64,000 nucleotides of DNA from assembly GCA_026706635.1 (NCBI GenBank), contig JAPOYJ010000020.1:1-64000 (forward strand), given 5' to 3'. The stretch is from Gemmatimonadota bacterium (GTDB lineage: Bacteria; Gemmatimonadota; Gemmatimonadetes; Longimicrobiales; Gaopeijiaceae). The stretch's first letter is position 1; each line of letters starts with the position of its first letter. Positions 1 through 62,530 of this stretch are shown here, piece by piece. Position numbers and translations under genes: made by a program. Below the pieces are notes generated by a model. The model did not search any database, had not been told where the DNA came from, and saw nothing but the letters and a program-made list of their open reading frames with translations.

Positions 1-438
1 CCCTTGCCGGGCCGGCCATCGGCCGTCAACGCGACGATTCCCTGCCCCGACGGCGGCGACGCCACCTTCGAGGGAGAGGCGACCGCCGAGGTGCAGGCAG
101 GACAGGTTAGCGCGGAGGCGACTGGTTCGCTGGTCACCAGGAAGTGCGCGTTCCACGCTGACGGGTTGGGGGTCGTGGTGGACAGCGACGGTTTGGCGCA
201 GTCGATCCGAATCACACTGGTGCCCCGGCTTGCCAGCATCCTGCTCGTGGCGGAGTCCTCGGGCAGGGTGGGCTGGGTGGCCGGTCACCGCAGTGGCCGC
301 TGCGATCTGGCGAACAAGGTGACGAGCCGGATTTCCCTGGAAGCCCTGTGGGGTGGCGCTGCTCCCGTGGCGCGGGCCTCGGGGACGGTGTGCGGGCGCA
401 AGATCGACCATGAACTCCACTTGGTTACGGGGCCCTGA
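1..438 (+). CDS. Secreted cysteine-containing protein, C-terminal part (cut by window edge)
   Basis: The reading frame is open from the first base and ends at TGA 436-438, so the start lies outside the window. No known family is recognised. The sequence is a clear paralog of the minus-strand lipoprotein at 1419-2036: both share CPxGGxA, a central DGLxxxVD stretch, a SGxC segment and a C-terminal xCGxxI segment in the same order, so they have three conserved cysteines in common. By that kinship it is probably a secreted or lipid-anchored protein. The two paralogs point at each other across about 1 kb of DNA without a gene. Confidence 0.7.
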   Translation, partial: PLPGRPSAVNATIPCPDGGDATFEGEATAEVQAGQVSAEATGSLVTRKCAFHADGLGVVVDSDGLAQSIRITLVPRLASILLVAESSGRVGWVAGHRSGRCDLANKVTSRISLEALWGGAAPVARASGTVCGRKIDHELHLVTGP

Positions 439-684
439 CCCACCCGCGCCAGTCTCGACACCGCCTCCGTTCGCCACAGTGGGGGTGCACACCGGCGCAC
501 GTTGCACGGTGCCCGCGCCACGGCTTACGGCCGCACTGGAGTGTGAATACGACACGGGGGGCCAATGCACATTTCGGCGCTCCGGCGATGCACACCGGCC
601 AAGTCGCTTATCCGTTGGGGCGGCAACGTCTTGCGGCTCCGCCGCACGGCCTGCCGCGGCACGGGAGCCACCTGGGCGGTGGAG

Positions 685-773
685 GGGAGCGACCCCCCAG
701 TCCGAGGGCCTGGTACGGGTTCGGGACGAGGTGGAAATTCACACCTCGTCCCTGCCCTCCCTGGGTCGCTCCC
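685..773. other. Composite stem-loop element, copy A
   Basis: An 11-bp perfect outer inverted repeat (GGGAGCGACCC 685-695 with GGGTCGCTCCC 763-773) encloses a second perfect 11-bp hairpin (GGGACGAGGTG 723-733 with CACCTCGTCCC 742-752) whose 8-base loop is GAAATTCA. Copy B at 1103-1192 has the same plan, with the outer core AGCGACCC/GGGTCGCT and the same loop length. It is either a structured RNA or a DNA-level recombination or binding element; the strand cannot be told. Confidence 0.45.
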
Positions 774-1102
774 GCACCAACAATCCCTGGCGGGAAGGCC
801 GTCCGAACGCCGCTTCGGGACACGGCGGACCAACCCGATCCTGCTCCGGCTGCCGCCGTTGCCCAAATTGCCCGCGCCGCTCTCCTGCCAGCGTCCGCCC
901 GCGTGGTGGCTGGCTCCGGCCACCCACGGCGGTCTTGGCCCCGACACCGCGATCCGCGTCTGCCCCTACGCAGCGCTCCCCGTCCTGGTTTCACCTCCGT
1001 CCATGGAGACCGCCGGTTCGAGGCGGCGGTCCGGCTTGCCGAGAGTCGGGATGCCCCCACCGTGAGCGTCCTCCGGCCTTCCTGCAAAGGACTGCTGGAC
1101 CC

Positions 1103-1192
1103 GTAGCGACCCGCCGCGGCGGCTTGGGATGGAATTGCACATCCCAACCTCCGCAGATGCCACAACAGGCATCGAAAAAGGCGGGTCGCTAC
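1103..1192. other. Composite stem-loop element, copy B
   Basis: A 13-bp perfect outer inverted repeat (GTAGCGACCCGCC 1103-1115 with GGCGGGTCGCTAC 1180-1192) encloses an 8-bp hairpin (TTGGGATG 1124-1131 with CATCCCAA 1140-1147, loop GAATTGCA) and a small hairpin (ATGCC 1157-1161 with GGCAT 1168-1172). Compared with copy A, the inner stems differ by paired changes that keep base pairing, while the loop length and the GGAAWT start of the loop region are kept. Confidence 0.45.
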
Positions 1193-1418
1193 GACCACGT
1201 CCTCCGTTTCCGGCGCGGCACCGCCGCCCCGGAGGCCGTGGCGCAACCACAAGCCGGACAAGGACATGCGCGATCCCCGTCGTGCACGTCCGAACGGCGA
1301 TTCCGCGCACATCGACCACGATTTCACATGTGCGGCTCCATCCGGGCACGACTTCGCCGTTTCGGGACTTCGAGTAGCCTCCCGCGCCGTTCTCAAGCGT
1401 CGTCCCGGAAAGAACGGC

Positions 1419-2036
1419 TCAACCATCGCTCGCGACTCGAAGATCGGCTGCTTCTCCAGCGGTGACCGTGATGTCGAATTCGATGTCGTGGCCGCACATC
1501 TTCCCCTTGTAGCCGCCCGTCGCCTTGGGGTTCTCGGGATCCGACAAATCGACCGTCGCATCGAGCGGCAGGTCCATGGCGCATTCCCCCGACCGGTCCT
1601 CCAGTTGCCATTTGACCTTCCCTTCGATACCACCGCCCAAGACGACCGTCTCGAACGCGATGATATCGAAGGACATCCCGGTGCTCATGCTCGGGTCGCC
1701 GTCCACCGTGAACGCCAGTCCGTCGCCCGACACCTTGCAACCGGCCGGCGTGACCACCGCATTCAGCGCCAACTTGAGGGTGTCCCCGGCCTGCCTGGCG
1801 GTGGCCGTTCCGGCCACCCTTGCTTCGCCCCCGTGCGGGCAGGCGACCGTGGTATCCACGGAGCCGGAATCCACATCGTCATCGGGGAGGAGCTCCAAAC
1901 CCACCGTAATCGCCTTGAACAGGGCCAGGGCTTCGGCCTCGGTCAGCGTGTCCGGCGGGTCCACCGGATCCTCGCACCCCGCCAGCACGACGGCGAGCAC
2001 GAGTCCGGAGAGTGCGAGACGGGTTCTGCCTGACAT
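1419..2036 (-). CDS. Lipoprotein of unknown function, paralog of the protein at 1-438
   Basis: The product is 205 aa. The ATG at 2036 gives a short type II signal peptide with hydrophobic core LVLAVVLAGC; the lipobox cysteine is residue 21. A start nine codons upstream (2063) is possible but would put a charged stretch before the signal. Mature features shared with 1-438 are ACPHGGEA, DGLAFTVDGD, RSGEC and a C-terminal MCGHDI segment. A long upstream extension of the same frame has no coding character. No known domain is recognised, so the role is unknown; the anchor suggests the envelope. It is divergent from the recombinase at 2299. Confidence 0.75.
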   Translation of the reverse strand: MSGRTRLALSGLVLAVVLAGCEDPVDPPDTLTEAEALALFKAITVGLELLPDDDVDSGSVDTTVACPHGGEARVAGTATARQAGDTLKLALNAVVTPAGCKVSGDGLAFTVDGDPSMSTGMSFDIIAFETVVLGGGIEGKVKWQLEDRSGECAMDLPLDATVDLSDPENPKATGGYKGKMCGHDIEFDITVTAGEAADLRVASDG

Positions 2037-2298
2037 TCGGTTCTGCTCTTTCTGCCGGGCCATCCCCGGCGGCTTGGAGGCGTCCTTCCGTGGGGCCGGG
2101 CAGCATCCAACGGCCCAAGGGGTTTCCGCCCATGATACCGTTCGAGGCCCGGCATGTTCCCGTCGCCCGCGATCCGTGCGGGCCTCCTGGAGACGAAGGT
2201 GCGGAGAGAGAGACACGCACACTGGCGGAGAAGCCCTCCCTCCGCGATACTTCGTTCGCGCAGATCGTGCAGTCCATCGAATCGAGAGGAATCGAACG

Positions 2299-3459
2299 AT
2301 GGCACGCACGAAACGAAGTCGGCGCTCGTACGGCGCCGGCGAATGGGGCCGGAACCGGGTCAGGATCTTCCCGGACCCGAAGACCGGCATGTTCCAGATC
2401 GAGTGGCGGGAGAACGGGCGCAGGCTCACCCGGTCCCTCAAGCACCGTGACTGGCGGCGCGCGAAGCGGCAGGCGGACGAATTCGCCGCCGGGTTCGCCG
2501 GCCCGGAGATCGGGGGCGGGGCGGAAGCCAAGCCCGAGCCGCTCACTCTGGAGCGGCTCTTTGACATCTACGGTCAGGAGGTGACGCCCGCCAAGGGCGC
2601 TCACACGCGGCAGCACGACCGAACGTCGATGCGGATGTTCCTCGACCTCTTCGGACTGTCCCGCGACCCGGCGACCCTGTCTCAGAGGGACTGGGACCGA
2701 TTCATCCGGGAGCGCCGCGCGGGCAGGATCGGACCGAGTGGCAAGCCCGTGGCGGATCGGACGGTCGAATACGACCTGAAGTTCCTGATTGCCGTTTTCA
2801 ACTGGGCGGCGAAGTCCCGCGACGAGCGGGGCCGGTTGCTGCTCGACCGGAACCCGCTCAGAGGGCTCAGGACGCCCACGGAGAAGAACCCGAACCGGGT
2901 GGTGCTTGGCGAGGAGGAGTACCACGCGCTTCTGGAGGTGTCACTCCGGGTGGACTGGCGGTTCCATGTCGCCCTCGCGCTCGCGCACGAAACCGGCCAC
3001 CGGATCGGGGCCATCCGCCAGCTTCGGTGGCGCGACATCGACTTCGAGGGCGAAACCATCGTCTGGCGAGCCGAGCACGACAAGACCAGCTACCAGCACG
3101 TCACGCCGGTCACTCCAGAGGCCTTGGATGCCTTGAAGGAGGCGCGGAGTTGGAATCGCTCGACCGGGGATGCCCCGGTGCTGCCCGCGCCCCGGAATCC
3201 GTCGGCCTGCATGGGTGCCGCGTTGGCGCAGGGATGGTGGGACAGGGCCGAGCGGCTCGCGGGACTGGAGCCGAAGCCCGGACGGGGCTGGCACTCGCTG
3301 CGGCGCAAGTTCGCCTCCGACCTGATGGACCAGCCGTTGAAGGTGCTCTGCCAACTCGGCGGCTGGAAGACGGCCAAGACGGTGCTTCGGTGCTATCAGA
3401 GAGCCGACGAGGGACAGCTTCGGAAGGCTCTGGAAGACCGCCGCCGGGCTCGCGGCTGA
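2299..3459 (+). CDS. Tyrosine recombinase / phage-type integrase
   Basis: The 386-aa protein has an N-terminal DNA-binding part (about 15-75), a core-binding SAM-like domain (about 84-175) and a catalytic domain (about 205-370). The catalytic set is visible: R235 in the HRIGAIR box, K262, H332 and R335 in GWHSLRR, W356 in the place of the second histidine (LGGWKT) and the nucleophile Y366. Starting at ATG 2299 fits the GAGAGGA ribosome site at 2284-2290; the same frame is open far upstream but without coding character. Integrases catalyse site-specific strand exchange of mobile elements. No excisionase, other phage genes or tRNA target are seen nearby, so this looks solitary or like the remnant of an element. 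Confidence 0.9.
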   Translation: MARTKRSRRSYGAGEWGRNRVRIFPDPKTGMFQIEWRENGRRLTRSLKHRDWRRAKRQADEFAAGFAGPEIGGGAEAKPEPLTLERLFDIYGQEVTPAKGAHTRQHDRTSMRMFLDLFGLSRDPATLSQRDWDRFIRERRAGRIGPSGKPVADRTVEYDLKFLIAVFNWAAKSRDERGRLLLDRNPLRGLRTPTEKNPNRVVLGEEEYHALLEVSLRVDWRFHVALALAHETGHRIGAIRQLRWRDIDFEGETIVWRAEHDKTSYQHVTPVTPEALDALKEARSWNRSTGDAPVLPAPRNPSACMGAALAQGWWDRAERLAGLEPKPGRGWHSLRRKFASDLMDQPLKVLCQLGGWKTAKTVLRCYQRADEGQLRKALEDRRRARG

Positions 3460-3560
3460 GATCAAGACCGGCGGGAATCATTCAGCGGGAAATCGGGCTG
3501 TCGAACATGCAAACACATTCACCGCAACAAGATGCGAAACTACAACCACATGTCAGCCCG

Positions 3561-3609
3561 GCGCTTCGCCGCTCTCGGTGCTCGCGCGAGATTATCCACG
3601 GACTGCTAG
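3561..3609 (+). repeat. Dispersed CTAG-ended element, right end only
   Basis: This 49-bp stretch matches the right end of the element best seen at 8291-8543: the segment with CTCGGTGCTCGCGCGAG followed by ATTATCCACGGACTGCTAG. The left half is missing. A weak, AT-richer stretch just upstream (about 3506-3552) may be a decayed form of the 39-bp palindrome box. The copy lies between the recombinase and hicB. Confidence 0.75.
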
Positions 3610-3873: not shown

Positions 3874-5115
3874 ATTGACACGACGACCCTGACCCTCGCC
3901 CTCGCGGCCCTCACCCTCGCCGCCTGGCTGACCCTCGCCATCGCCGCCCTGTTCAGCCACTACAAGGTCCCCCGCCTGCACGACGTGGCCCCGGACCGCC
4001 CCGGCGACCCCCCGCTTCCCCGCCTCTCGATCATCGCCACCGCCCACAACGAGGAGCGGTCCATGGAACGCGCCCTTCGCTCGCTCCTTGCCCTGCGCTA
4101 CCCCGACTACGAGGTCGTCTTCGTCAACGACCGCTCCACCGACCAGACCGGCGAGATCGCCGAGCGGCTGAGCGCCGGAGACGCGCGCCTGAAAGTGCTC
4201 CACATCGACGAACTTCCACCGGGCTGGTTCGGCAAGACCCACGCGGCCCGGCGCGGCGCGGAGACGGCCACCGGAGAGGTCCTCCTCTTCACCGACGCCG
4301 ACGTGGTCTTCGCCCCCGATGCCGCAGTGTGCGGCGTGCGGCACCTGCTCAGGGAACGACTCGACCACCTTGCCGCGGGGCCCCGTGTCACGGTCACCGG
4401 CACCATGCTCCGGGCCTGCACGATCGCCACGCAGTTCTTCATCGGCGCGAGGCAGAGGCTCTGGAAGGTGGGCGACCCGCGCAGCTCCGCCTTCATCGGA
4501 ATCGGCGCCTATACGATGATGCGCGCCGACTCCTACCGGGCCGTCGGAGGATACGAATGCGTCGCGCTCCGGCCGGACGAGGATCTTCGCCTGGGCCAGA
4601 TCGTAAAGCGGTCCGGGATGCGGTCGGGCTTCCTGAAGGGGGTCGAGCTGCTGGAGATCCGCTGGTACCACTCCTTCGGCGACTTCGTTCGGGGTCTCGA
4701 CAAGAACTTCTTCGCCGCCCTCGACTACAGCCTCCTCATGGTGACGGGCTCCACCGTCACCCTTGCCTGGCTCGCCGCCGGGCCGCTCGTGATGGCGCCG
4801 CTCCTTCTGGCGACCGGCCAGCCCCTCGCCGGAGCGCTCTACGCGGCCTGCCCGGTCATCTGCTGGACGGCGGCCACGACCCTCACAAGGGACAACGCCT
4901 ACCCATGGTGGTACGTCCTCCCCTTCCCGCTGGCCGTGCTTGTGATCGTTTTCGCAATCTGGCGTTCCACGGCGCTCACCATCTTACGCGGGGTGGTCTG
5001 GGGAGGGCCGCCGGTGCCGCTCTCGGAATTGAGGGCGGCCCGGCCAGGGACGGGAATCGCTCGCCATGACCCCTCGGAGCACCCCATAATGACAACCACA
5101 GATGACATAATGTAA
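3874..5115 (+). CDS. Membrane-anchored family 2 glycosyltransferase
   Basis: The GT2 core begins LSIIATAHNEE (nucleotide binding) and continues with VFVNDRSTDQTGE and the metal-binding FTDADVVF; the C-terminus has two or three membrane helices. It transfers a sugar from an NDP-sugar to an unknown lipid or glycan acceptor at the membrane. The first conventional start is GTG 3985, but the frame upstream back to 3826 is open and encodes a clear hydrophobic helix (LTLALAALTLAAW onward) typical of this family. No ATG, GTG or TTG lies there; an ATT at 3874 follows GGAAGA at good spacing, hence the start chosen. The stop codon lies inside a palindrome box (5090-5128). Confidence 0.85.
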   Translation: MDTTTLTLALAALTLAAWLTLAIAALFSHYKVPRLHDVAPDRPGDPPLPRLSIIATAHNEERSMERALRSLLALRYPDYEVVFVNDRSTDQTGEIAERLSAGDARLKVLHIDELPPGWFGKTHAARRGAETATGEVLLFTDADVVFAPDAAVCGVRHLLRERLDHLAAGPRVTVTGTMLRACTIATQFFIGARQRLWKVGDPRSSAFIGIGAYTMMRADSYRAVGGYECVALRPDEDLRLGQIVKRSGMRSGFLKGVELLEIRWYHSFGDFVRGLDKNFFAALDYSLLMVTGSTVTLAWLAAGPLVMAPLLLATGQPLAGALYAACPVICWTAATTLTRDNAYPWWYVLPFPLAVLVIVFAIWRSTALTILRGVVWGGPPVPLSELRAARPGTGIARHDPSEHPIMTTTDDIM

Positions 5116-5128
5116 TCTGTAGTTGACA
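5090..5128. repeat. 39-bp paired-palindrome box of the dispersed element
   Basis: Two 18-bp near-palindromes, TGACAACCACAGATGACA (5090-5107) and TGTAATCTGTAGTTGACA (5111-5128), are separated by TAA. Size and spacing are identical to the boxes at 7370, 8372, 13864, 26146, 58109 and 62443. It lies between the convergent glycosyltransferase and parD genes and contains the glycosyltransferase stop codon. No inverted CTAG ends are recognised here. Confidence 0.7.
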
Positions 5129-5197
5129 TCGACGGAGCGAGAGCACCTTGCTCATGTCCCGGCGGCGCTGGAGGCGCCGGGTGCGTTGGAGTTGCGG

Positions 5198-6608: not shown

Positions 6609-7316
6609 GTGACGGCTCCGATGCACCCACTCGATCCCTCCCGCTTCGAGCTGCTGACCTTCGACTGCTACGGCACACTGGTGGACTGGGAGTCGGGGAT
6701 CGTCGGCGCGGTGCGCTCCACCACCGCTGGCTGCGAGGCTTCGGACGCCGACATTCTCGAGGCCTTCTCGCACGCCGAGCACCTGGTGCAGAGCGAGCGC
6801 TACCGCAGCTACCGCGAGGTGCTGGCGCTGACGCGCGGGCGAATGGCCACGTCGCTCGGCTGCGCGGCCACCTCCGGGGAGAGGGCCGCCTTCGCCGGCT
6901 CGGTGGGCGACTGGCCCGTCTTTGCCGATACTCGCGAGGCGCTGGAGCGGCTGTCGGGACGGTACCGGCTGGGCATCGTCTCGAATGTGGACGACGATCT
7001 ATTCGCACGGACGCTGCCGTGCCTAGGCGTGGACTTCGACTGCGTCGTGACCGCCTCCCAGGTCGGGAGCTACAAGCCCGCCCCCGGCCACTTCGTCGAG
7101 ATGGAGCGCCGCTCGGGCTTGCCGCGCGAACGCACTCTGCACGTTGCGCAGAGCCTCTTCCACGACATCGCGCCCGCCTCCGAGCTGGGTTATGCCACCG
7201 TGCATGTGGACCGCCCGACCCGGGGGCGGGGGAGCGGCGCGACTCCGGCCGCCATTGCCCGCCCCACCGCCACAGTGCCCGACATGGCGAGCGTGGCCGA
7301 GCTGCTGGCTTGCTAG
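6609..7316 (+). CDS. HAD-superfamily hydrolase, haloacid-dehalogenase type II-like
   Basis: The 235-aa protein has motif I FDCYGTLVDW with nucleophile Asp19, the SNVDDDL motif II region and the SYKPAP lysine motif III, followed by HVAQSLFHDIAPA, the order found in type II 2-haloacid dehalogenases and related phosphatases. Start GTG 6609 is preceded by AGGTG; ATG 6621 is an alternative. The stop TAG (7314-7316) lies within the CTAG of a dispersed repeat whose body follows directly. The dehalogenase substrate is a family inference. Confidence 0.85.
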   Translation: MTAPMHPLDPSRFELLTFDCYGTLVDWESGIVGAVRSTTAGCEASDADILEAFSHAEHLVQSERYRSYREVLALTRGRMATSLGCAATSGERAAFAGSVGDWPVFADTREALERLSGRYRLGIVSNVDDDLFARTLPCLGVDFDCVVTASQVGSYKPAPGHFVEMERRSGLPRERTLHVAQSLFHDIAPASELGYATVHVDRPTRGRGSGATPAAIARPTATVPDMASVAELLAC

Positions 7317-7408
7317 CCCGTGGACAAACCTCCCACGGCAGGAACAGCGCGGCATCCCCACACCTACAAAGTAAATCGTAGTTTACAAAATGTAAACCAT
7401 AGTGTACT
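7313..7408. repeat. Dispersed CTAG-ended element, left half
   Basis: Starts CTAG-CCCGTGGAC, lacking the CAG found in other copies, followed by the conserved hairpin CCGTGG/CCACGG and then the palindrome box: AGTAAATCGTAGTTTACA (7370-7387), AAA, TGTAAACCATAGTGTACT (7391-7408). The right half is absent. It sits between convergent genes and holds the stop codon of the HAD gene at its left edge and of the porin gene at its right edge. Confidence 0.75.
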
Positions 7409-8195
7409 ATGGCGAGAGGCTCAGCAGGAAGACGAGGTACGCGCGGTTCACGCTCCTCGCCGGGTTTACCACGTACGAGACGCTGACCGGGGGGGCGAAG
7501 GACTCGGTGATGCCGAGCTCGGTGCTGGCGGTGACTCCGATGTTCACCACGGCGGCGCCCCCGGCAGACTTCTCGTCATCCGGATCGCCCGTGGTCTGGT
7601 AGAAGACGCTCTTGCCGTTCACATACCCTAGGTGCCATGCCAGCTCAACCCCCTCGGCATCCATCAGCGGTCCGCCGACCTCGGCGTAGAGAGTCTGGAC
7701 GGAGCAGTCCTCCTCCTCACCGCAATCGTCACGGTCGACATCGTCGAGCAGTAGGCCCGCGTACACCGAGAGAGGCGCGGACTCCGGTCCCGAGACTGAC
7801 ACCCACACCTCCTGCGTGTGCGCCTCACCGTCCCTGAAATCCGTCGCGCCGGGGCCCGGGAAGTAGTAGTCGGTCACGCCGAGCGACAGGCTCGCGCCCG
7901 CCTCGAACTCGTGGGTGAAGCTAGCCCAGAGGTCGTTCTCGTTGGCGGCGGCTCCGGAGGCGCTGATCGAGTACGACCCCCAGGCACCGAACTCGAGCAT
8001 GCCGAGCGATATCGTCAGCGCTGGCTGGAGCGCCATCGACTCGCCGAAGTCTAGGCCTCGCCATACGTATCGGCTCACGACATCGGCCCCGAGGGAGACC
8101 GACTGCGCGGCTGCGGGAGCAGAGGCGGCTGCCACAAGCGCGACTGCCGCCAATAGGAATGTGTGACGAATGGACGACCTGGTGCGGTGTATCAT
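7407..8195 (-). CDS. TorF-family putative outer-membrane porin
   Basis: The 262-aa protein has a cleavable signal peptide ending ASAPAAAQS and then the hallmark GADVVSRYVWRGLDFGES of the putative TorF-type porin family. Alternating amphipathic strands follow to a C-terminal hydrophobic end (FLLSLSP), as expected for a beta-barrel. It is likely an outer-membrane channel of unknown specificity. Start ATG 8195 is preceded by GAGAGG. The frame stays open upstream into the repeat at 8291-8543, but that extension is not needed. A complete palindrome box lies about 180 bp upstream of the start. Confidence 0.8.
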   Translation of the reverse strand: MIHRTRSSIRHTFLLAAVALVAAASAPAAAQSVSLGADVVSRYVWRGLDFGESMALQPALTISLGMLEFGAWGSYSISASGAAANENDLWASFTHEFEAGASLSLGVTDYYFPGPGATDFRDGEAHTQEVWVSVSGPESAPLSVYAGLLLDDVDRDDCGEEEDCSVQTLYAEVGGPLMDAEGVELAWHLGYVNGKSVFYQTTGDPDDEKSAGGAAVVNIGVTASTELGITESFAPPVSVSYVVNPARSVNRAYLVFLLSLSP

Positions 8196-8290: not shown

Positions 8291-8543
8291 CTAGCAGCCC
8301 GTGGACAAACCTCCCACGGCATTCGAGGCGCGCTGCATCCCCGCTGGACCGCTTCGCTCGCCTGTCCATACTGTAATGTATACATTACAATGTGTAATCC
8401 ATGACTTACAGTTCCTGTATCCCTGGCTTCGCTCTGTGTTGCTCCTTGGCCCGGTAGCGCTGCTACCAAGCCTTCGTCGCGCCTTGCCAGCGGGGCGCTT
8501 CGCGCCTCTCGGTGCTCGCGCGAGATTATCCACGGACTGCTAG
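8291..8543. repeat. Dispersed CTAG-ended element, most complete copy (253 bp)
   Basis: The ends are inverted: CTAGCAGCCCGTGGAC at the left and ATCCACGGACTGCTAG at the right. Inside, from left, are: a hairpin CCGTGG (8299-8304)/CCACGG (8314-8319); the box TGTAATGTATACATTACA (8372-8389, a perfect palindrome), ATG, TGTAATCCATGACTTACA (8393-8410); a hairpin GGTAGC-GCT-GCTACC (8453-8467); and the palindrome CTCGCGCGAG near the right end. It encodes no evident protein, though its minus strand is open outward from the box (MDRRAKRSSGDAA onward). CTAG at both ends may be a target duplication or part of the inverted repeat. It is MITE-like or REPIN-like; no transposase is visible. Confidence 0.85.
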
Positions 8544-11890: not shown

Positions 11891-12244
11891 CTAGCAGCCC
11901 GTGGAATAAACCCTGACGGCATTCGAGGCGCGCTGCATCCGCGCTGGTCCGCTGCGCTCTGCGTTGCTTCTTGCACGAATAGCGCTGCTATTCGCGCTGC
12001 GAAGCGCCTTGCCAGTGAGGCGGTCCGCGAACAGAACCCCGACGGCATTCGACCGGCGGAGCATCCCCGCTGGGCCGCTGCGCTCTGCGTTGCTCCTCGG
12101 ACCAATAGCGCTGCGGCTATTGGCCCTTCGTCGCGCCTTGCCAGCGGGGCGCTTCGCCGGTCTCGGTGCTCGTCCGGGCCTGTCCACGGACCGCCAGCGC
12201 AGCGCCCCTCTCGGTGCTCGCCTGAGTTTATCCACGGACTGCTA
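11891..12244. repeat. Dispersed CTAG-ended element, tandem double copy without palindrome box
   Basis: The left end is CTAGCAGCCCGTGGAATAAA and the right end is TTATCCACGGACTGCTA. Between them the central part occurs twice. Each copy has the central hairpin, but with different paired bases: CGAATAGC-GCT-GCTATTCG (11976-11994) and CCAATAGC-GCTGCG-GCTATTGG (12103-12124). Two right-end-like segments follow each other at about 12150-12244. The 39-bp box is missing in both. The right end supplies the amt stop codon. Confidence 0.8.
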
Positions 12245-13654: not shown

Positions 13655-13863
13655 GGCGGTTGTCACATTGGTGATGGAGAAGACTGGGGACGGCCCGGGT
13701 TCGGGACTGCGCCAGCCAGCCGATCGTCGGCCTGGAAAAGGCCAACCCCCGCTACCGCCGGTTACGGGGAGCCAAGGTACTGTGCGGACGGCGCTGCGCA
13801 AGTAGCGGGTTAGAGGCTACCGGCCCGAATAGCCGCGCAGAGCTATGCCACGAGCAAAAAAGT

Positions 13864-13902
13864 TGTAAACCATGGATTACATATTGTAAAGTATACATTA
13901 CA
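13864..13902. repeat. 39-bp paired-palindrome box
   Basis: TGTAAACCATGGATTACA (13864-13881), TAT, TGTAAAGTATACATTACA (13885-13902). It is in the opposite orientation to the copies at 8372 and 62443, since its reverse complement aligns with them. No CTAG ends or GC-rich arms are recognised around it, so here the box stands alone, between the start of amt and the end of the rqcH-like gene. Confidence 0.75.
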
Positions 13903-13938
13903 CTGTCGACAGGCGGTGCAGGGTACAATCAAGCTGTG

Positions 13939-25972: not shown

Positions 25973-26129
25973 CGCCGGGGCTCCTTTCGCGGAAGGCGTT
26001 CTGTTCCAGGGCACGCGCGGCAAGGCCGGGCCGTTGTCCATAGGAAACGCCGGAAGGGGCGAAGCCCCCGCCTGTTCGCCGGGCGAGGCGCGGGCGGAAC
26101 TGGCCGCCCGACCCGCACAGGCCCTCTTC

Positions 26130-26282
26130 GCCCGCTTGTCCACAGTGTAATCTATGCTTTACATTTTGTAATCCATGATTTACAGCGTCAATGCGCGAGG
26201 CTTCGCTCTGCGTTGCTCCTTGGGCCGGTAGCGGGGCGCTTCGCCGCTCTCGGTGCTTGCGCGAGATTATCCACGGACTGCC
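26130..26282. repeat. Dispersed CTAG-ended element, right two thirds
   Basis: Starts within the left arm (CGCCCGCTTGTCCACAG). It contains the box TGTAATCTATGCTTTACA (26146-26163), TTT, TGTAATCCATGATTTACA (26167-26184), then the right arm with GGCTTCGCTCTGCGTTGCTC and the end ATTATCCACGGACTGCC. The second half of the central hairpin is deleted. It lies between the divergent lipoprotein (25972) and ybeY (26300), 174 and 116 bp from their starts. The 327-base gap 25973-26299 otherwise shows nothing. Confidence 0.8.
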
Positions 26283-31038: not shown

Positions 31039-31065
31039 CTAGCAGTCCGTGGATAAACCTGGACA
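31039..31065. repeat. Dispersed CTAG-ended element, end fragment
   Basis: CTAGCAGTCCGTGGATAAAC is one end of the dispersed element, followed by a weakly similar stretch containing GCGCGAGC. It matches the reverse complement of the right end better than the left end. It stands about 40 bp before the start at 31102. Confidence 0.65.
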
Positions 31066-34650: not shown

Positions 34651-34732
34651 TCCATGTCTCCTAGTGAGCAGTGGTTCCTAGTTGTGAAGGATAGGCTGGG
34701 GTGGGTTGGGGCGCAATAGCGAAGGGCAGCTC

Positions 34733-34831
34733 TGGCAGCCCGTGGACAACCTCCCACGGCAGGAGCAGCGCTGCATCCCCGCTGGCGCCTCGCCGGTCTC
34801 GGTGCTCGCGAGATCATACGCGGACTGCCAG
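34733..34831. repeat. Dispersed element, internally deleted mini copy (99 bp)
   Basis: Both ends are present but the middle with the palindrome box and central hairpin is deleted. The left end is CTGGCAGCCCGTGGACAAC with its CCGTGG/CCACGG hairpin; the right end is GATCATACGCGGACTGCCAG. Here the ends read CTGG and CCAG rather than CTAG and CTAG, so they remain complementary to each other after the change. It lies in the 323-base gap between the divergent genes at 34650 and 34974, which otherwise shows nothing. Confidence 0.75.
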
Positions 34832-50189: not shown

Positions 50190-50253
50190 GGTGCCCTGCC
50201 AGCGGGACGCTTCGCCGCTCTCGGTGCACGCGGGAGGCTTTTCGCGGACTGCC
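50190..50253. repeat. Dispersed element, degenerate right half
   Basis: From GCCCTGCCAGCGGGACGCTTC through TTTTCGCGGACTGCC this matches the right arm of the element at 8291-8543 with several changes. The box and left half are missing. It lies directly after the MoeB-like gene, in the 349-base gap before groES that also contains the promoter and CIRCE. Confidence 0.6.
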
Positions 50254-58108: not shown

Positions 58109-58147
58109 TGTCAACTCCGGTTTACATCATGCAAACCACATTTGACA
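58109..58147. repeat. 39-bp paired-palindrome box
   Basis: TGTCAACTCCGGTTTACA (58109-58126), TCA, TGCAAACCACATTTGACA (58130-58147): degenerate but with the same 18-3-18 layout. It lies between the convergent genes ending at 57963 and 58152, five bases before the stop of the second. No CTAG ends are seen. The rest of the 188-base gap shows nothing. Confidence 0.6.
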
Positions 58148-61168: not shown

Positions 61169-62473
61169 CTACCTGCGGCTGGGACCAAGGCTGTAGAGTC
61201 TGACTTCCTCTTCGTCGTTGGCATCACGCAGGAGGGTGGCGAATCGGTCGGCATCCACTGCCAGTACACTCGCCGTGGCTGGAAGAGCCAGCCATCCCCG
61301 GAGCTGTCCGTCGGCACCGATGACGAGCCAGCGCCTTGTTTCCTCCCCCAGGCGGGCGGCCAACCCGATCCAGACCATCTCGTCGGGCCCGAGGAGCGCA
61401 GAGTGAAAGGCGGGGTGGGTATCGCGGTGGGGAGCATTCTCAACCGACTGCCGGTACCACTCCGGTGCGTCCGACCCCAGGCGGGCGAGCCGTTCCGCCC
61501 TCGACGCCTCGATCTCTTCGGCCGTGACCGCCCACCCGCCGCCGGTGCCGCGGATCCGTCGCGTGAGGCGACCGTCGGCCCCGTAGACGGATAGGCTCAA
61601 CACGTCCGTGTCGCCGATCAGCGCCCGGTCCCCGAATCCCTTGGCGACGATATCGCGTCCGAACGCGGGTTCGCTCCGAGTGGCCCCTCCTCCGGGAATG
61701 CTGCCGTAGCTCCATTCCTTGGCTGGAAGAAGCCCCAACGTCTCTGGCTCGGCCCCGAGATTCGTGAACGAGAGCAGAGGCGTCGTATCCCTCTTCATGC
61801 CTTCGGGAAGAAAGAACCGCTGCTCCCCCAGGATCGCGAGGACGTGACCGGCGGTGTCCGTCGCGAGAGGTCTCAGACTCACGATGGCGCTCTCCGGGTC
61901 GAGTCGCGTCGACGTGAGGAACCGCCCAGTCTCCGCGAACTCGCTGAGACGGGCCAGCCGCGAGTCGTAGACCAGGAACCCAGCTTCCGTGGCGAGGAGC
62001 GTTGTGATCTCGCTGAACTCCCCGGGGCCTTCGCCCTCTCCGCCCACGCGCGTTGCAAGGGAACCATCGGCGGAGAAGATCAGCACTTCGCTCTCGCCCG
62101 TGTTGGCCACTGCCAAGCGACCGTTGCCGAGGAGGAGGGCGTCCCCAACCCAGAACAACTCGATCCCGAGTCCCCGCGTGGAGAAAACAAGCTCCGCCGC
62201 CAACTCGGGTGCCGCCAGTTCCTCCACCCGGCCCAAGGAGATGTCTGTGATCCCGGCCGAGTCGGAGATCTGAACCACATTGCGGGCCTGAACGTCCCTC
62301 TCGGACTTGGCATCGTTGCACGCGGCAACGGCGCTGCAGAGGAATCCGACAGAGAGGAGGACTAGCAGCCCGTGGACAAACCTCCCACGGCATTCGAGCA
62401 GCGCTGCATCCCCGCTGGACCGCTTCGCCCGTCTCCCCACACTGTAATGTATGGTATACATTGTGTAATCCAT
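61169..62473 (-). CDS. 6-bladed beta-propeller lipoprotein with repeat-derived N-terminus
   Basis: Residues from about 50 onward form a propeller lipoprotein: lipobox region LCSAVAAC, ISDSAGITDISLG, blades VANTGESEVLIFSADG, and FLVYDSRLARLSEF, ending VRLYSLGPSRR. The first 36 residues (MDYTMYTIHY, GRRAKRSSGDAA, RGRFVHGL) are encoded by the dispersed element at 62363-62530, which joins exactly where the hydrophobic core starts. Start ATG 62473 follows GGGAA; GTG 62440 is possible. It seems an insertion removed the original start, and the element now supplies one with a positively charged N-terminus. Paralog of 58152. Confidence 0.75.
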   Translation of the reverse strand: MDYTMYTIHYSVGRRAKRSSGDAALLECRGRFVHGLLVLLSVGFLCSAVAACNDAKSERDVQARNVVQISDSAGITDISLGRVEELAAPELAAELVFSTRGLGIELFWVGDALLLGNGRLAVANTGESEVLIFSADGSLATRVGGEGEGPGEFSEITTLLATEAGFLVYDSRLARLSEFAETGRFLTSTRLDPESAIVSLRPLATDTAGHVLAILGEQRFFLPEGMKRDTTPLLSFTNLGAEPETLGLLPAKEWSYGSIPGGGATRSEPAFGRDIVAKGFGDRALIGDTDVLSLSVYGADGRLTRRIRGTGGGWAVTAEEIEASRAERLARLGSDAPEWYRQSVENAPHRDTHPAFHSALLGPDEMVWIGLAARLGEETRRWLVIGADGQLRGWLALPATASVLAVDADRFATLLRDANDEEEVRLYSLGPSRR

Positions 62474-62530
62474 GGTTTACAATTTCCCATGCCCGTGGCT
62501 TCGCTCTGCGTTGCTCCTCGGGCCGTCAAT
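62363..62530. repeat. Dispersed CTAG-ended element, left two thirds
   Basis: Left end CTAGCAGCCCGTGGAC with the CCGTGG/CCACGG hairpin, then the box TGTAATGTATGGTATACA (62443-62460), TTG, TGTAATCCATGGTTTACA (62464-62481) and part of the right arm (GGCTTCGCTCTGCGTTGCTC). The central hairpin and right end are missing. It overlaps the 5' end of the propeller lipoprotein gene. The following stretch to about 62670 shows nothing clear. Confidence 0.8.

Follow-up and report, generated by a model that had tools for sequence, protein, structure and literature searches.

The window analysed here, a stretch of 64,000 nucleotides of Gemmatimonadota DNA, contains a dispersed repeat bounded by CTAG, and the question it raises is what this sequence is and what has moved it. 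An initial annotation had described about twelve copies with inverted ends and had suggested a miniature inverted-repeat transposable element (MITE), while also recalling REP/REPIN elements. We consider it highly probable that the repeat is a CTAG-inserting MITE with an IS1182-like mover, that it carries a conserved folded cassette, and that its stem has been reused by one clade of integrases.

Inspection of the sequence bore out the inverted ends described for the copy at 8291-8543. This copy measures 245 bp (CAG..CTG) without the duplicated CTAG and 253 bp with both CTAG flanks. Alignment of 65 unique copies demonstrated that full-length copies run from CAG to CTG, are usually 245 bp long and carry CAGYCCGTGGA terminal inverted repeats throughout. 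A search with a profile built from 37 full copies recovered the matches listed in Table 1, and there were no matches to this profile in the reversed window used as a control. About nine of the twelve places proposed at the outset are substantial pieces of the element, whereas that at 5090 is a weak match, that at 31039 consists of an end motif alone, and that at 58109 was unconfirmed, as neither the profile nor a closer look revealed a recognizable element part there. The element exists in two forms: short units of ~171 bp, frequently arranged as tandems, and the 245-bp form, which adds an AT-rich double palindrome. In the window and in other copies, this palindrome sits between two GCTTCGCTC-like repeats. 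From its sequence, the palindrome looks either like a protein-binding site or like a segment inserted into the short form.

Table 1. Coordinates of the element, its parts and the integrase island in the window
Feature	Position	Strand	Remarks
Visible part of integrase island	1-3551	.	left end missing (contig begins at 1)
Tyrosine recombinase gene, 386 aa	2299-3459	+	PF00589, E 2e-15; element-associated clade
Right part of island-interrupted element	3552-3609	+	attR-like junction TCAGCCCGGCGC...CTGCTAG; profile match 3549-3609
AT-rich inner part only	5085-5131	-	weak profile match, E 0.001
Partial copy, left half and AT-rich part	7313-7414	+	profile match
Best full-length copy	8291-8543	+	profile match; element proper 8295-8539, CTAG duplicated both sides
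AT-rich double palindrome TGTAA-N8-TTACA in long form	8369-8414	+	short forms lack the palindrome
Tandem of short-form units	11891-12244	+	profile match; units 11891-12022, 12020-12196, 12195-12244
Partial copy, middle	13745-13920	-	profile match
Partial copy	26113-26281	+	profile match
Isolated right-end motif without body	31039-31056	-	+ strand reads CTAGCAGTCCGTGGATAA
Shrunken copy, both ends kept	34732-34830	+	profile match
Right-end fragment	50191-50252	+	profile match
Partial copy, left two thirds	62362-62525	+	profile match

The wider search of the genome and of related assemblies that had been recommended with the initial annotation revealed copies throughout the host metagenome-assembled genome (MAG) and in each of the 22 other genomes searched from the host genus (Gemmatimonadota). 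Within the host MAG (2.8 Mb, 86 contigs), BLAST matches mark at least 72 element places, and CCACGGACTGCTAG, a 14-mer of one end, occurs exactly 51 times against 0 for the reversed pattern; in G021, a closed genome, allowing one mismatch yields 184 occurrences of the end pattern (8 for the control). The named matches are Gemmatimonadota MAGs, including two closed chromosomes labelled Longimicrobiales, and isolate names suggest that members of the genus are probably mostly sponge symbionts. G021 also contains head-to-tail arrays of 171- or 249-bp units (L192, L207 and L217), in which linkers of GG or CCCG take the place of CTAG.

Flanking sequences and empty sites show that the element inserts into CTAG with a 4-bp duplication, as had been surmised from the CTAG at both ends. 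Flanking 4-mers are identical on both sides of 19/65 copies (9.8 expected) and, among copies with CTAG on neither side, agree in 6/29 (1.1 expected), one of these six pairs, CGGG, belonging to a tandem array. A 2-bp TA duplication was rejected, since flank pairs of CTGG, CTAT, CTAA and TTAG favour 4 bp. A search with joined flanks detected an exact empty site in the form of a same-genome paralogue with a single CTAG (94% over 151 bp, ungapped) and a near-precise one in an orthologue with GTAG (83% over 156 bp); the remaining candidates were less clear than those two. For the window's own copy at 8291 no exact empty site was found: the copies at 8291 and 11891 are both missing from the nearest species, whose orthologous flanks are too diverged to define those sites. 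CTAG is a rare tetramer here and often bears a gene's TAG stop. On rough gene calls, the duplicated CTAG apparently supplies the stop of the neighbouring gene in ~15/50 copies; CTAG sites in general lie at a stop in 13/107, a sample that includes element flanks.

The element itself is without a transposase, in agreement with the initial annotation, and a search for an autonomous relative identified a ~1.5-kb IS1182-like insertion sequence (IS). Seven copies of this IS measure 1496-1506 bp and one 928 bp; CTAG is present on both sides in 7/8 listed copies, the eighth having CTAG/TTAG. Its ends read CAG[GTC]CCGTGGA, with a single variant base in one end, and these ends alone (~15 bp) are common to the IS and the element. 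The transposase has DUF772 and DDE_Tnp_1 domains and NF033551 (IS1182) as its top model (E 1.7e-51); its 175.7 bits are under the curated IS1182 cut-off of 270, yet this is its best match. IS5 models are among the weaker matches of the same protein, although the likely mover is IS1182-like and not IS5 proper. Searching with PF13546 gave weak matches only, yet these pointed to the IS1182-like IS. Intact copies of the IS occur in a few species; the host genome shows a decayed fragment only, and the transposase had no match in 11/23 genus genomes, MAGs often losing repeats. With terminal inverted repeats, target duplications with empty sites, and an autonomous relative sharing its ends, the element is best interpreted as a MITE, because the IS1182-like IS has both the same ends and the same CTAG flanks. 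The common ends suggest mobilization in trans, in which the IS1182-like transposase would recognize the shared CAGYCCGTGGAYAAA ends and place the element into CTAG, duplicating 4 bp. IS630 (PF13358) was rejected as the parent, as its copies have other ends and sit at CTAG beside elements. At L221 (host contig C13, ~89.6-90.8 kb), L226 and L229, such IS630 copies directly adjoin element ends, in or close to CTAG, and by their positions indicate that the element attracts other insertion sequences.

Folding predictions suggest that the interior of the element is one structured cassette, which would fold end to end and better on the minus strand (-136.2 kcal/mol, z -10.6) than on the plus strand (-108.5 kcal/mol, z -6.3). 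Among 23 genus copies, pairing is retained in 97.8% of pair cells, and double changes occur in 16 pairs versus a shuffled mean of 7.0 (0/500) and 2-5 for slid controls, the shuffles being weakened as controls by the non-independence of related copies. Across phyla there are 11 covarying pairs versus 6.3 in a control weakened in the same way, and purine-rich loop strands mostly retain their sequence across taxa while the pairing covaries. Such compensation indicates that the pairing is preserved in a single strand of RNA or DNA; a structured transcript and a folded DNA that aids transposition are both possible roles for the core. No Rfam family scored above its gathering score within the window, and the sole Rfam match at the element in related loci was far under its own.

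With a covariance model, 54 of 249 Gemmatimonadota genomes proved to carry the core, representing 24 of the 112 genera sampled. Further copies are present in MAGs labelled in their records as Aquimonas (28), Xanthomonas (13), Gemmatimonadales (31) and Deltaproteobacteria (DP_23, 2; RHO3_bin_65, 94); the core was not found in the plasmids, phages and viral contigs searched. Outside the genus, the element usually has a total size of 157 bp, with ends of TGTnnTGTCnC or similar (end type TGTnnTGTCnCAGAAGT) and flanks that are mostly CTAG or near-CTAG. The constant part is consequently the core and not the ends, the same cassette standing behind other terminal repeats elsewhere. Two side observations concern Deltaproteobacteria. 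In RHO3_bin_65 (L306, L311, L315) the 94 core copies have their own ends, TGTCCTGTCTCACAAATAGCG, and a contig end of this bin (L084, JAPPNF010000186.1) bears a genus-type copy, which may reflect either transfer or bin mixing. A Deltaproteobacteria MAG has a match to the Rfam ASdes sRNA at L080 1738-1805 (54.2 bits, cut-off 40).

The element also serves as the site of integrase islands, whose junctions lie inside it. In G021 and G001 a ~5-kb integrase unit splits one element into a left and a right part, and both island junctions carry CCAGCCCGGC in G021 and CCGGCCCGGC in G001; a unit with its integrase on the opposite side shows TTGCCAGCCCGGC. The integrase of the window lies ~90 nt before the right element part, and integrase-element junctions lie 96-97 nt past the last aligned codon. 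When 31 integrases were compared, the element was abutted by 12 of the 14 at ~79% identity or more and by none of the 17 below this level, four of which lie beside tRNA genes. All 12 element-abutting integrases fall within one supported clade of 15; the direction of a target switch, from tRNA gene to element, would follow from this tree, which is rooted at its midpoint only. We infer that the attachment site at which this tyrosine recombinase clade inserts its islands is GCGCCTTG-CCAGCCCGGC-GCC, in the element stem. One MAG of 4.2 Mb (G003) has 42 matches to the window integrase. The integrase unit, which ends exactly at the right end of the element, was considered as the autonomous parent and rejected, as the left junctions place it inside the element at a 10-bp repeat.

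Other explanations of the repeat account for parts of this evidence. A REP/REPIN-like element moved by a Y1 (RAYT) transposase via single-stranded DNA would have the high copy number, palindromic fold and terminal tetranucleotide seen here, and the covariation agrees with a folded single strand. To our knowledge, however, Y1 transposition leaves no target duplication, so that the 4-bp duplication and clean empty sites are unexpected, and an IS with a DDE transposase has identical ends; we regard this idea, raised by the initial annotation, as disfavoured and very improbable. A similarly slim chance attaches to the element being the tyrosine recombinase's own attachment or cassette site, spread integron-like by the integrase with no transposase. 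Precise positioning of islands inside the element and the head-to-tail arrays would fit such a system, but the island junction is internal to the element, CTAG duplications flank the element ends and less similar integrases adjoin tRNA genes. The integrase scores 33.7 bits against the XerA/integron integrase model, far under its cut-off of 220, and the element does not behave as an integron attC site, the integrase lying inside the inserted island.

The fold could instead reflect a conserved structured RNA gene or regulatory RNA, secondarily dispersed and kept by host selection rather than by transposition alone. Stability biased towards the minus strand, wobble pairs on that strand, and covariation with sequence-conserved internal loops across phyla are in keeping with an RNA, but dozens of copies per genome occupy unrelated loci with target duplications, no Rfam family is matched and, on heuristic gene calls, the right-hand gene reads through the minus strand in 13/50 copies only. 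We judge this alternative unlikely, though less so than the previous two. A further proposal is compatible with a MITE moved by an IS1182-like transposase: that IS630-type transposases move the same core outside the genus, giving two families for one cassette. The outside-genus ends TGTnnTGTCnC resemble those of genus IS630 copies (CTAG|TGTTGTGTCCCAGAG..), and L282 is such a copy within the genus; against this, PF13358 was found in just 1/11 carriers of such elements, in a copy without such ends, and we hold the proposal to be possible but on balance not favoured. Somewhat more doubtful is the broader idea that the 157-bp cassette is a separate mobile entity, a folded RNA or single-stranded DNA core that swaps ends and transposases between phyla and was adopted by the integrase clade.

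Among known systems, the IS1182 family includes ISPse1, with 1653 bp, 16-bp ends and a 4-bp duplication, and IS1272 has been described together with it (PMC3281130); IS1272 reportedly takes the place of inverted repeats and generates no duplication (PMC5678879). The partner transposase is like this family in its best-fitting model and in a 4-bp duplication as in ISPse1, and unlike it in scoring under the family cut-off; in the literature searched, no CTAG preference was documented for IS1182. REP/REPIN sequences of TnpA-REP (PMC3733652, PMC8266576) are likewise dispersed palindromes with a tetranucleotide at the end, but the element is longer, has a 4-bp duplication and has a DDE-type partner. 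Literature searches returned no description of the element.

MITEs of bacterial insertion sequences, such as Correia/NEMIS and RUP, are usually defined through the match of their ends to a transposase, and their interiors can drift freely. The element is like them in being short and non-coding, with inverted ends, a target duplication and an IS with the same ends. It differs in having an interior, rather than ends, that stays conserved between genera and between phyla, with compensatory base changes, and in doubling as a landing site for islands. A conserved folded core beneath changing ends and use as an island target are its unusual aspects, and an interior conserved over phyla raises the question of which property of a non-coding passenger is under selection. 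Integrase islands at tRNA genes typically have a tyrosine recombinase beside one junction, a short direct repeat and a target in a stem, all of which recur here. Unlike a tRNA gene, however, the element is a multi-copy mobile repeat and many islands can therefore fit into one genome, an opportunity that the integrase clade may have gained by switching its target.
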